From contig JAJQCV010000028.1 of NCBI GenBank assembly GCA_021202525.1, positions 18,305-82,304 on the forward strand: DNA of 64,000 bases. Reading direction: 5' to 3'. The DNA is from Akkermansiaceae bacterium (GTDB taxonomy: Bacteria; Verrucomicrobiota; Verrucomicrobiia; Verrucomicrobiales; Akkermansiaceae). The position numbers were made by a program, and so were the translations under genes. Under the pieces are notes generated by a model. It was not told the DNA's origin. It saw only the letters and a list, made by a program, of their open reading frames with translations, and did no database searches. Below, piece after piece: positions 53,526 to 58,189 of the stretch (positions are counted from its first letter, which is position 1; each line of letters begins with the position of its first letter).

Positions 53526-54539
53526 CTATTTTTTCTTGCTCAGTGTTGTTTGTTCTCCTGTTGTTTTGTTGGCAATGGTTACGGTTTGCGTTGCATTATC
53601 AACGGTTTTCAGCGTGTAAGTCTGCTTGGTGTCACCGGGTATCTGGAAGTCGGCGCCTTCCTCTACTTCAAAGCTGGTATCCCGTTTGGGACCGGCGGCA
53701 ATAGTAAGGTTTACTTTCTTATCAATGATGGGTATGAAATACTTGGCTCCCCTTCTTACCGTATAGGTTTGGCCGTTCTTGGTCGGCTTCAAATCCTTGA
53801 CGATTGCTTCGGGGTCCGTTTCCACCATGTTGAGGCTTTCATTTTTGAATTCCTTGTTGTCCACGCTGACAAGCTCGAACCTGGGCTTTTCATTCGTGTT
53901 CTTTCTGGCTCCGAATTGACCGTTGAGCTGGACGGTGCTTCTCCACAGGTCCTGTCTGGCGCGATTCTGCCCCTTGAAGGTGAAATCGTTGCCGTCCGCC
54001 TGTGAGAAGACCAGGTAAAAGCCGAACTGCTTGATTTCGTCCACATACAACTTGTTGATGAGGGGCGGGTGACTGTTCGGATCGTTGGGATGTGTTTTGG
54101 CCTCGTATTCCTCCTGGACAGTAAAGCCGTCGTTGTCCGGGTCCCGGGTCAGAACGTCCGAATAAATGAAAATGTCTTCCAGCCCGTTGTCCAGGAACCA
54201 TTTATTGGGGATATTCCCGTGAATGGGCGGTCCGGACACGATGTCGAAGGGTTCCGTCCCTCCCGTCTTGATCCAGAGATTGGGGGCAACGAATCCTACA
54301 TATTCCTGAGTTTCCTGAACGATGGGTTTGAGTTCGTGGGAAGCCGAGATTTCCTGGTTGACTGTTTCCGCCTTCTTGATGCCGGAGGGCGGTTCCACGG
54401 GCTTTTCCGAAACACGGGTGGTAAATTTATACTGGTCGTCCAGCTTCATGAAGGTCCAGGCGCCGTAAGCGGCCACTCCCAGGCCCAGAACAATGCCGGA
54501 GACCATCAGGATCTTGTCGTAGTTTTGTTTTTCAGACAT
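53526..54539 (-). CDS. Pilus-cluster membrane protein with thrombospondin-3-like calcium motif (Amuc_1099-like)
   Basis: The 337-residue protein has one N-terminal membrane helix (ILMVSGIVLGLGVAAYGAWTF) and a periplasmic remainder. At about residue 130-155 lies RDPDNDGFTVQEEYEAKTHP followed by NDPNS, the pattern of thrombospondin type 3-like or dockerin-like calcium loops (D-x-D-x-D-G). The rest is beta-rich with a C-terminal domain (FEVEEGADFQIPGDTKQTYTLK). It matches the second gene of the Amuc_1098-1102 cluster from memory. A PilP-like role of linking the inner-membrane platform to the secretin is inferred from position and topology, since no PilP motif was recognised. Confidence 0.8.
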   Translation of the reverse strand: MSEKQNYDKILMVSGIVLGLGVAAYGAWTFMKLDDQYKFTTRVSEKPVEPPSGIKKAETVNQEISASHELKPIVQETQEYVGFVAPNLWIKTGGTEPFDIVSGPPIHGNIPNKWFLDNGLEDIFIYSDVLTRDPDNDGFTVQEEYEAKTHPNDPNSHPPLINKLYVDEIKQFGFYLVFSQADGNDFTFKGQNRARQDLWRSTVQLNGQFGARKNTNEKPRFELVSVDNKEFKNESLNMVETDPEAIVKDLKPTKNGQTYTVRRGAKYFIPIIDKKVNLTIAAGPKRDTSFEVEEGADFQIPGDTKQTYTLKTVDNATQTVTIANKTTGEQTTLSKKK

Positions 54540-54573: not shown

Positions 54574-55530
54574 TTAGTCTTCAGACGGTTCCTGCGTCTT
54601 GGGCTGTGCGAAGTGAACCAGATTCAGGGAGACCTGGACCATCACCTGTTCCTTGCCCATATAGGGCTTGATTATTTGCTGGATGGGCGGTTCCGCCGGA
54701 GCGGCCGCCTCCCCCGCCGGCGTCAGGCTCGCCGCTCCCGTCTGGGGCTGTGCGGCGGCAGGCTGCGCGGCAGCCGGATTGGTGATGGGCGGCGGCATCA
54801 TCCGTTCGTTGCGTATTCTGATGGAATTGACCGTGAACAGGTATTCCTGGGAATCCGTAATGGCGTTCATGGCTTTCAGCACGCTTCCCCGGTCGCCCTG
54901 GAAGGCGATTTCCAGAGGCATGCCCGTCCAGGGAGCCTTCTGGTCTGAATCTTCCTCATCTTCCGTGTTCCGCGCCGGGTTTTCAATGGGAAGCTGGGAG
55001 CGGTAAACCTTGATGAATTTGGTCAGTCCGCAGTCCGTGAGCTTGTTGACCAGGCTGTTGATGGCCTTCATTTCAAAGGTCAGCGTGGGCGTAGCCTGCA
55101 CGGAGGGAGCCTGGGTGCTGTAAAGCTGGAAGCCAAGCCAGGAAGAAGTATCTGTAATCTGGATATTTTTTTCCTTGCAGGAGGCGATCAGGGATTCCCG
55201 GAAGGCCTTCAGTTCATTCTGGAACGCCGTGGGCGTGGTGGGCGCCAGCACGGAGGAAGCCATAAAGGGTTTGTATGCCGTTTCCAGGTTGCCGATGGCC
55301 TTGGCATAGCGGTTCAATTCCTTTTCCAGCTCCTTGTTGGACGCATGGCTTGGCGTAATTGTCGCAGCGTTGGCCGACTTGATTTCCTGGGAAGCGGACT
55401 TGATTTTCTTATCCAGGTCGCTGCGTTCGGAATTAGCCATATACCCAGCCACGGACAGCCCGAGGAATAAGAGAAGCCCCACGCCCGCTACCGTAGCCGC
55501 AGGCTTGTTGTCTGTAATCCAATTGCTCAT
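54574..55530 (-). CDS. Amuc_1100-like outer-membrane-associated pilus protein
   Basis: The 318-residue protein begins MSNWITDNKPAATVAGVGLL and closely follows A. muciniphila Amuc_1100 along its length. That protein is enriched in the outer-membrane fraction and known for signalling through TLR2. It has a membrane helix (~12-31), a coiled coil (SDLDKKIKSASQEIKSANA) and then two alpha/beta domains, a layout like PilO/PilN. A Pro/Ala tail segment (PAAAQPAAAQPQTGAAS) precedes the last strands. Many scattered substitutions relative to my memory of the type-strain sequence (e.g. VAGYMANSERSDL versus ATGYIVNSKRSEL) argue for a different lineage. It lies 29 bp after the PilM-PilN fusion gene. Confidence 0.9.
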   Translation of the reverse strand: MSNWITDNKPAATVAGVGLLLFLGLSVAGYMANSERSDLDKKIKSASQEIKSANAATITPSHASNKELEKELNRYAKAIGNLETAYKPFMASSVLAPTTPTAFQNELKAFRESLIASCKEKNIQITDTSSWLGFQLYSTQAPSVQATPTLTFEMKAINSLVNKLTDCGLTKFIKVYRSQLPIENPARNTEDEEDSDQKAPWTGMPLEIAFQGDRGSVLKAMNAITDSQEYLFTVNSIRIRNERMMPPPITNPAAAQPAAAQPQTGAASLTPAGEAAAPAEPPIQQIIKPYMGKEQVMVQVSLNLVHFAQPKTQEPSED

Positions 55531-55559: not shown

Positions 55560-57401
55560 TTACTTGTTAAAATGTACGGGAATGGGGGTTTTCAGCGGAA
55601 GCACCAGCTTGAAGGGAACGAAGGCCCCTGCCGCGGCGTCTATCTTGGCGTCCTTGGCGCCCAGTTCCATGATCTGGCGGACTTCCAGCTTCCTGTCTCC
55701 GTCCTTGAATGTGAACAGGGAATCCTTGTTCGCATCCATCTTGGCCTGGAGGTCCTGGATAAGCTTCTGGCCGCCGTCGGAGCGTTTGGCGAGGCCGGTC
55801 AGACGGATGGCATTGACGCTGTAAACGGCATTTTCCTCTCCGTCACTGGCGGAATTTGCGGCCGTCTCCGTCCTGATGTTTTCCACCAGGGAGGTGTTTT
55901 TGTCGGAAAGGAAGGAATCCTTGATGACGGAGTAGCCCGTGATCTGGGTGGCGTCTTCCGGATTGAAATGCGCCACAGGTTCAAAATCCGTGAACCAGTA
56001 GGGGTAATTTTTGTGTTCCGACTGTTCCAGAAGATGTTTGATAATGTCCGCATAGCCGTACCGCTGGAGAGTCAGCTGCTGGTAGGAGGCGAGGGTGGCG
56101 TCCATCTTCTTCAATTCCTGTTCCTTGAGGCGCAGGGCGGATTGTTCGGACTTGATGGAGCTGACGGTGGGGGATACGCCGGAAAGGGTTTGCTTGGCCT
56201 TTTCCACGCCCATGTAGCCCGTGACCGCATAGGCAGCCGCGCCGAGCACGGCGATGACGGCCCCGGTGATGATGGCGGGCATCTTCTTCTGGTTGACCCG
56301 TCTTTTAGCCACTGCGGTGGGCTCCAGGTCAATGTTGAGGGAAGCGCGGTCAACGGCGTTGATGGCCGTTCCGATCATGCCGCCCAGGGTGAAGGCTTCA
56401 CGGGAAATGGTGTTCACGTCCACGCCGGAACCTACGCCCACGTTATGCATGGGGTTGAAGAAGGAAATCGGTATGCCCAGCTTGTCTTCCAGGAATTCCT
56501 TGGTGTACGGAAGGGAGGAGCCTCCGCCGCACAAGTAGGCCTTCACTGGCGCACTCCCCTTCATCTGGGCACGGTAGTGGTTGGTCGTGCGCTGGATTTC
56601 GGAAGCCAGCCTGGTCATGGCCGTGCGGATGATGGTAGCCAGGTTGGCCGTGGCCGGGTCCAGCCCTTCCGTCTGTCCGTTGCTCATGGAAACGAGTCCG
56701 CTGGTGATCTTCAGACGTTCGGCCTCCACGAAGGGCAGATTGAATTCACGGGCGATGGCGGAAGTGACGAAAATGCCGCCCGCGGAAATGCTGCGGGTGA
56801 AGAAACGGCCCTGTTCGCTGTAAATCAGGTCGGTGGACTTGGCGCCGATGTCGATGAGCATGACGGGCTCCTTCTCTTCCGGGTAGCTGTCCACGTACGC
56901 GTTGTACAGGGAGGTCTGCGTGCAGTCCACCTTGCCGGTGGAAAGCCCGTGGGAGGTGATTTCATCATTCAGGGAATCCAGGTCTTCCGCCTTGATGGCG
57001 ACCAGGACGGCCTCGCGTTCCAGCCCGTTGGCCGGCAGGAGGTGGTAGTCCCAGACGACTTCATCCAGCGGGAAGGGAACATGCTGCTGGGCCTCAAACC
57101 GGATGAGCTGTTCAACGTCCGTGTCGTCCAGGGCGGGAAGCTTGACAAAGCGGATGAAAACGGACTGCCCGGATACGGAATAATTGGCCACGCCGCCTTT
57201 GACGTGGAGCTCCTGAACGAGGTCGGCGACGGCCTCCCCTACTTTTGCCAGGCGCATGCCTTCTGCGGATGGATCCAGTACGATGAGGCGCGTAGCGTAG
57301 CGGTCCAGGATGAGAGCGTTCTTATTCGTCTTGGAAAAGACGCCCATCGATACTCGCTGGGAACCTACGTTTAATGCGACGATTTGTCGTGAATTAGCCA
57401 T
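55560..57401 (-). CDS. PilM-PilN-type fusion protein (Amuc_1101-like)
   Basis: Residues 1-~350 form an actin-fold PilM: IVALNVGSQRVSMGVFSK, VFIRFVKLPALDDTDVEQLIRFEAQQHVPFPLDEVVWDYH (the PilM signature) and EPVMLIDIGAKSTDLIYSEQGRFF. KAYLCGGGSSLPYTKEFLEDKLGIPI follows. Residues ~375-395 form a transmembrane helix (PAIITGAVIAVLGAAAYAVTGYMG), followed by a coiled coil and a ~200-residue periplasmic domain, as in PilN. PilM and PilN are normally separate proteins joined by the PilN N-terminal tail in the PilM groove; here both are one 613-residue chain. The gene sits between the Amuc_1102-like and Amuc_1100-like genes. Confidence 0.85.
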   Translation of the reverse strand: MANSRQIVALNVGSQRVSMGVFSKTNKNALILDRYATRLIVLDPSAEGMRLAKVGEAVADLVQELHVKGGVANYSVSGQSVFIRFVKLPALDDTDVEQLIRFEAQQHVPFPLDEVVWDYHLLPANGLEREAVLVAIKAEDLDSLNDEITSHGLSTGKVDCTQTSLYNAYVDSYPEEKEPVMLIDIGAKSTDLIYSEQGRFFTRSISAGGIFVTSAIAREFNLPFVEAERLKITSGLVSMSNGQTEGLDPATANLATIIRTAMTRLASEIQRTTNHYRAQMKGSAPVKAYLCGGGSSLPYTKEFLEDKLGIPISFFNPMHNVGVGSGVDVNTISREAFTLGGMIGTAINAVDRASLNIDLEPTAVAKRRVNQKKMPAIITGAVIAVLGAAAYAVTGYMGVEKAKQTLSGVSPTVSSIKSEQSALRLKEQELKKMDATLASYQQLTLQRYGYADIIKHLLEQSEHKNYPYWFTDFEPVAHFNPEDATQITGYSVIKDSFLSDKNTSLVENIRTETAANSASDGEENAVYSVNAIRLTGLAKRSDGGQKLIQDLQAKMDANKDSLFTFKDGDRKLEVRQIMELGAKDAKIDAAAGAFVPFKLVLPLKTPIPVHFNK

Positions 57402-57472: not shown

Positions 57473-58189
57473 TCAAAGATCGTCGGTTTCCGGAGGAGTC
57501 GGCGTTCCGAAGCCGGAAGGTTCCGGGGCCGAGCCTCCCTGGTGGAGGTTGGGCTTCATGATTTCCGGATAACGGTCATACCAGTACACGGAAAAGGGCG
57601 TTTCATCCTTGTTCAGCAGGGGATAATAGGTGGTTTCCACGATGCTGGGGGACTGGATGGCCCACCATTTTTCCATCTTGCCGCGTTCGGAGGAATAGGT
57701 AGCCACTACCTTGCCGTTATATTCCACGACAACGCCTTCATACTTGACCCACTTGCCGCGGCCGCCTTCGGAACCGGTGATGCGCTTGACGGAGGAGGGA
57801 GAAAGGTAAACGGAAGCGTAGGTGGATTCACCCACCGGAACGTTGACGTACTTGATTTCCTTGTACAATTTCAGGTACTGGCGCGCGCGGTCCGGATTGA
57901 CCACGGCAATATAGAATTTGAAAGTCAGGGAATCGATGTAGCCGGATTTGGGCATCGGAGAAGCTTCCACCTTGAAGGGCACTTCAAAATCCGCCCATCT
58001 TTTCGGCTTGGGCAGGGGCCGCGGATCATCCTGCGTGGGCACGTTCGGAGACTGGCGCATGTACAGGGACAACTTGTCCAGGGTAACGCGCACCTGCGTT
58101 TTTGGGTTGCTCGTGCTTTGTGCGGATGCCGCAGGAATAAGAAGCACGGCAGCCAGCATAGCCGTGATGGAAGTAAGGATGGATTTCAT
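57473..58189 (-). CDS. Exported protein, first gene of the pilus-like cluster (Amuc_1102-like)
   Basis: The 238-residue protein has a signal peptide (MKSILTSITAMLAAVLLIPAASAQ). The mature part is beta-rich (TQVRVTLDKLSLYMRQSPNVP; EVPFKVEASPMPKSGYIDSLTFKFYIAV), with no recognised domain, and the C-terminus is acidic/Pro-rich. From memory it matches Amuc_1102, whose structure was reported as related to minor pilins or archaeal pilins. It is 71 bp upstream of the PilM-PilN gene and probably leads the operon. No prepilin peptidase-type leader (G-F-x4-E) is present, so it is not a classical type IV pilin. Confidence 0.8.
   Translation of the reverse strand: MKSILTSITAMLAAVLLIPAASAQSTSNPKTQVRVTLDKLSLYMRQSPNVPTQDDPRPLPKPKRWADFEVPFKVEASPMPKSGYIDSLTFKFYIAVVNPDRARQYLKLYKEIKYVNVPVGESTYASVYLSPSSVKRITGSEGGRGKWVKYEGVVVEYNGKVVATYSSERGKMEKWWAIQSPSIVETTYYPLLNKDETPFSVYWYDRYPEIMKPNLHQGGSAPEPSGFGTPTPPETDDL

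Follow-up and report, generated by a model that had tools for sequence, protein, structure and literature searches.

In the present study, we analysed a window of 64,000 nucleotides (the whole stretch of DNA presented above), whose minus strand carries a five-gene cluster of the Amuc_1098-1102 type (Table 1). The gene at the centre of this report, read from 57401 down to 55560, encodes a protein of 613 aa and fills exactly the span in which an earlier note, made from the sequence alone, had seen PilM and PilN fused into one chain; a 600-aa frame on the plus strand across the same span was rejected as the shadow of this gene. The protein matches the NCBIfam model NF045709 (Amuc_1101_fam) over residues 1-609 with 730 bits (cut-off 650), and since A. 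muciniphila records encode an Amuc_1101-type protein 88-89% identical to it, we take the source organism to be a gut Akkermansia. Upstream lies Amuc_1102, and downstream follow Amuc_1100, Amuc_1099 and the secretin Amuc_1098, then the genes for dephospho-CoA kinase and Rho. The gaps between the five cluster genes measure 29-71 bases, which is consistent with a single operon. Furthermore, one envelope fraction of A. muciniphila is enriched at least 10-fold in each of the five proteins, Amuc_1101 among them (PMC5332112), as would fit a membrane-anchored PilM. The same paper names Amuc_1101 FtsA; another names it PilM and remarks on the lack of a reference structure (PMC13174399). Neither describes it as a PilM-PilN fusion.

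Table 1. Features of the cluster and of the fusion protein, in window coordinates
Feature	Position	Strand	Basis
Amuc_1102 / MUL2A family, 238 aa, first gene of the putative operon	57473..58189	-	NF042424, 228.8 bits (cut-off 55)
PilM-PilN fusion protein, 613 aa (Amuc_1101 / MUL2B family)	55560..57401	-	Open reading frame; NCBIfam NF045709
Cytoplasmic PilM (actin-like) domain, residues 1-349	56355..57401	-	PilM_2; profile to 3jc8 PilM; Foldseek
Junction peptide LNIDLEP (355-361), read as a decayed PilN N-terminal INLLP motif	56319..56339	-	Conservation; 5eou alignment; pLDDT
Predicted single membrane helix, residues ~376-396	56214..56276	-	Hydrophobic stretch; model helix 362-460
Predicted periplasmic coiled coil, residues 397-460	56022..56213	-	Model helix; aligned with the M. 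xanthus PilN coiled coil
PilN-like ferredoxin-type periplasmic domain, residues ~461-610	55572..56021	-	Model beta-beta-alpha-beta; hhalign; Pfam PilN in L026
Amuc_1100 family, 318 aa, pilO position	54574..55530	-	NF038287, 294.3 bits (cut-off 180); PDB 6lad, 6kny, 6laf
Amuc_1099 family, 337 aa, between the pilO and pilQ positions	53526..54539	-	NF042425, 311 bits (cut-off 50)
Secretin (Amuc_1098 / PilQ), N-terminal TPR repeats, 908 aa	50728..53454	-	NF042912, 1084 bits (cut-off 750); Pfam Secretin, 103 bits

The PilM actin fold that the earlier note had recognized stands out clearly in the first part of the protein. Pfam PilM_2 covers residues 11-346 with 107.1 bits against a cut-off of 27, the signature FEAQQHVPFPLDEVVWDY occupies residues 102-119, and the ten best Foldseek matches of the AlphaFold2 model are all PilM structures, with E values from 3.9e-27 (5eou_B, the best) to 3e-24. 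The NCBIfam pilM model TIGR01175 gives the fusion 129.6 bits, just below its cut-off of 133, and scores 152-175 in the relatives L033, L038, L050, L063 and L084. A profile built from 24 full-length relatives aligns its positions 1-349 with M. xanthus PilM (3jc8) at E 2.9e-73 and ends at residue 389 of 395, and thus, judged by this alignment, the PilM part runs to the natural C-terminus of PilM. Among structures in the PDB, the relatives of this half are PilM chains from Myxococcus, Thermus and Pseudomonas. Additionally, the phosphate-2 (D184, G186) and GG (292-293) positions of an actin-type nucleotide site are kept across the family, which makes nucleotide binding by the PilM head plausible.

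Directly after the PilM match, and without overlapping it, comes a match to PilN: positions 355-479 of the same profile align with residues 3-127 of M. xanthus PilN (3jc8) at E 2.3e-10, so that the two proteins lie covalently joined in one chain, as had been proposed. At the junction itself, L359 and P361 are invariant in 24 of 24 and in 64 of 64 relatives, and INLLP is the majority sequence (profile A1, most distant relatives), the Akkermansia version being NIDLEP. Through 'inLlPp' the 24-relative profile aligns into the 'INLLPW' of 5eou, a PilM-PilN(1-12) chain engineered by crystallographers. In the AlphaFold2 model, residues 351-360 form an extended segment with a pLDDT of 95, as would be expected of a peptide docked on PilM, if it is indeed docked. 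One may speculate that the partial decay of INLLP in Akkermansia reflects a selection that was relaxed once the link had become covalent.

The structure prediction of residues 1-613 that the earlier note had suggested as a check (mean pLDDT 82.7) returned, beyond the PilM fold, a helix at 362-460, strands at 468-477, 527-539 and 594-609, and a further helix at 544-557; the order of strand, strand, helix, strand after the long helix is the one expected for PilN, with low confidence in the insertion (~480-525) and in the stretch 570-590, where the pLDDT falls below 60 in parts. When the C-terminal profile alone was searched against 177,635 distinct PDB sequences, M. xanthus PilN came out best (E 2.6e-7) and Thermus PilN fourth (E 0.06). 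Comparisons of single sequences gave less, namely a weak 15% probability against E. coli HofN and matches to E. coli HofM and GspL too weak to count as positive. A search of the home genome with Pfam PilN, at E up to 10, found no separate PilN.

The fusion is apparently no local oddity but a near-universal trait among the sampled members of the phylum, to judge from their genomes. In a survey of Verrucomicrobiota of the kind the earlier note had called for, PilM was found in 224 of 241 sampled genomes, and 149 of the 150 PilM matches listed, which leave aside lower-scoring matches and thus do not stand for all 224 genomes, lie in frames of 511-735 aa, against about 355 aa for a canonical PilM by PDB chain length. 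The only short frame among these 150 (334 aa, in G186) runs off its 3,679-base contig. Similarly, 78 of 80 named loci encode complete proteins of 560-619 aa, and in the remaining two the frame reaches a contig end. Families remote from Akkermansia, and distant classes of Verrucomicrobiota, show the five-gene order as well. The recurrence of the long frame across the phylum excludes a frameshift or sequencing artefact as the cause of the fusion. The raw count of Pfam PilN matches over the phylum was left out of the evidence, since most of these matches fall in other frames, of about 390-590 aa. Many members of the phylum outside Akkermansia also show a clear Pfam PilN domain in a second protein, apparently GspL-like; the only such frame read (L135:1471-2934, minus) is GspL-like, and behind it lie a GspM-like gene and the first part of a gene resembling that of a secretin.

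Within the Amuc_1098-1102 cluster we found no ATPase, PilC, pilin or prepilin peptidase gene, in accordance with the earlier note. The genome search for pilB, pilT and pilD that it had recommended located these parts elsewhere. Contig 33 carries two PilB/GspE-like ATPases along with PilC/GspF and a GspG-like pilin; on contig 129 two PilT-family ATPases (441 and 420 bits against a cut-off of 319) are direct neighbours, and contig 27 encodes a prepilin peptidase (PilD). Altogether T2SSE matched four times in the genome, two of the matches being the PilT-family proteins, and there are seven N_methyl pilin matches. Besides the pilin of contig 33, prepilin-type N-termini occur on other contigs. The pilin beside the PilB-PilB-PilC genes (contig 33, 13598-14263; L015:937-1602, minus) is GspG-like, with 31.6 bits for T2SSG at a cut-off of 21, so the genome mixes a pilin of type II secretion kind with PilM and PilT of type IV pilus kind. 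A second secretin paralogue of 840 aa with a TPR-like N-terminus lies on contig 109 (17502-20024; L155:4503-7025, plus), with no pilMNO-type genes adjoining it. Genes of T4aP systems are usually scattered across several loci (PMC6668835), and we infer that the scattered motor genes serve the Amuc_1098-1102 cluster.

How, then, should the chain be read? Its overall plan is also that of GspL of type II secretion, in which an actin-like part in the cytoplasm is followed by one membrane helix and, in the periplasm, by a ferredoxin-like part (PMC3815138). Moreover, the GspL-like protein of L135 and the Amuc_1101-type profile align over their full length (97%, E 7.6e-11), and the pilin linked to PilC is, as described above, GspG-like. 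It is nevertheless improbable that the protein is a GspL rather than a fusion of type IV pilus proteins, for neither Pfam T2SSL nor GspL_C matches it, whereas the E. coli GspL control scores 283 and 144 bits with the two models; the fusion profile reaches only 2% probability against E. coli GspL, and the head is strongly of PilM type. Type II secretion systems normally lack PilT-family ATPases, and this genome encodes two of them above the cut-off. A still smaller chance, and to our mind a very slight one, attaches to the thought that the C-terminal half is some other periplasmic domain that has nothing but the membrane helix and the coiled coil in common with PilN. The alignment to PilN in the PDB search does consist chiefly of the helix, the coiled coil and the first strand, Pfam PilN finds no match in the 613-aa protein, few of the in-frame relatives exceed the cut-off of that model, and the insertion is poorly modelled. 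Against this, hhalign carries the C-terminal profile through the last strand of an independent PilN-domain profile (97.9%, E 3.9e-13), and in the relative L026 residues 453-538, after the membrane helix, pass the curated Pfam PilN cut-off (23.2 against 22.8 bits) with a model that covers the globular domain of PilN; profile searches therefore do place PilN-like sequence behind the helix, on which point the earlier note had staked its claim. The match also begins as early as PilN residue 3, with INLLP. Furthermore, in a control, a profile of the Amuc_1100 family, which likewise has a membrane helix and a coiled coil and is similar in composition, found no PilN, so that the match of the fusion is not accounted for by the composition of the helix alone.

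A third alternative is that the operon no longer makes a pilus and that PilMN, Amuc_1100, Amuc_1099 and the secretin form a conduit for glycan binding or transport that works in the absence of PilB and PilT motors. In its favour, the cluster holds no motor, platform or pilin gene, and the published description of MUL2 likens it to a secretion system (PMC13174399). We still regard it as unlikely, though somewhat less so than the two foregoing readings, because all motor parts are encoded in the genome, the scattering of pilus genes is usual, and there would be little use for a conserved PilM head with no ATPase to contact.

Taken by sequence and model together, the protein is a genuine PilM-PilN fusion, including the peptide by which PilN docks on PilM in canonical systems, in which residues ~355-610 represent PilN from its own N-terminus, that is, the decayed INLLP, the membrane helix, the coiled coil and the ferredoxin-like domain. 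Very probably, it is a covalent fusion at the base of a type IV-like pilus whose motors come from elsewhere in the genome. In the chain, a full-length PilM ring subunit is joined directly to the N-terminus of PilN, so that the tail with which PilN ordinarily docks on PilM is supplied in cis. In such a machine, the fusion would provide both the cytoplasmic ring and the inner-membrane anchor of the pilus base. Amuc_1100 may take the PilO role, Amuc_1099 may link towards the secretin, and Amuc_1098 would be the outer-membrane gate, with PilB, PilT, PilC, PilD and the pilins encoded elsewhere bringing about extension and retraction. The fusion would fix PilM and PilN at a 1:1 stoichiometry and make permanent the link between cytoplasmic ring and periplasmic collar, which in canonical systems depends on the binding of the INLLP peptide. 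Cells need the MUL genes, pilus genes included, to accumulate mucin internally (review PMC12418764), and the MUL2 locus has been linked with attachment to glycans rich in fucose (PMC13174399). The MUL2 machine may serve both glycan attachment and glycan uptake, and the fusion is most likely the inner-membrane base of a MUL2 pilus used in glycan capture.

Covalent joining of PilM and PilN is already known elsewhere, and the Akkermansia protein is a further case. Fusions of PilM and PilN in one chain have been published for Clostridioides difficile (PMC6916266) and, among Campylobacterota, for the majority of T4P clusters (PMC11870540), in other phyla, the likeness being drawn from the published descriptions. 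The Verrucomicrobiota fusion, unlike these, is near-universal in the sampled phylum and tied to the Amuc_1098-1102 gene set; Amuc_1101 or MUL2B of A. muciniphila is the same gene in the same operon as that of our window. GspL is accepted as the counterpart of PilM and PilN taken together (PMC3815138, PMC4471445). The fusion has its plan in common with GspL, but by sequence it does not belong among the GspL proteins and its head is of PilM type. The engineered P. aeruginosa chain 5eou likewise has PilM directly followed by the INLLP peptide; this man-made construct stops at the peptide, whereas the natural fusion continues into the whole of PilN.

More boldly, one may imagine that Verrucomicrobiota had the fusion from their common ancestor onwards and that it is the hallmark of a distinct hybrid machine, with a PilM-PilN chain as in GspL and a GspG-like pilin, but with PilT retraction motors and the phylum-specific Amuc_1099, Amuc_1100 and Amuc_1102. 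By pilus retraction this machine would draw polysaccharides such as mucin through a secretin of its own to the periplasm, much as competence pili take up DNA, and Amuc_1100 would be its PilO-like inner-membrane collar. This scenario is a tentative one and rather unlikely.

As for what the assignment offers, the annotation of Amuc_1101, hitherto FtsA or PilM, would become a full one in which the protein supplies both PilM and PilN, and these two proteins together would furnish the missing structural reference for MUL2B. The set Amuc_1098-1102 becomes readable as a pilus base of the order pilMN, pilO position, Amuc_1099, pilQ. Additionally, a PilM-PilN system locked by nature would be well suited to asking whether pilus dynamics need the dissociation of PilM from PilN.

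The most useful consequence may be the pilO position of Amuc_1100, a widely studied candidate therapeutic and 'probiotic' protein, known as the TLR2-active 'outer membrane' protein. Its gene stands directly after pilMN and ahead of Amuc_1099 and the secretin, and the protein has an N-terminal membrane anchor. If Amuc_1100 is the PilO counterpart, its native place would be the inner-membrane collar, in conflict with its usual description as an outer-membrane or surface protein. Profiles A4 and A7, compared with the PDB and Pfam, gave no PilO match for Amuc_1100, and published work places the protein on the cell surface (PMC5332112), a location that fits a PilO role poorly. For Amuc_1099, a PilP/GspC fold was sought by AlphaFold2 and Foldseek, with no match below E 0.05. 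Its family carries an invariant D-x-D-x-DGF...EE motif at residues 133-144, on which the bacterial TSP3 repeat of Pfam falls in 10 of the 16 members and which EF-hand calcium proteins match weakly; the motif is likely a calcium site, predicted to lie in the link between the inner membrane and the secretin.
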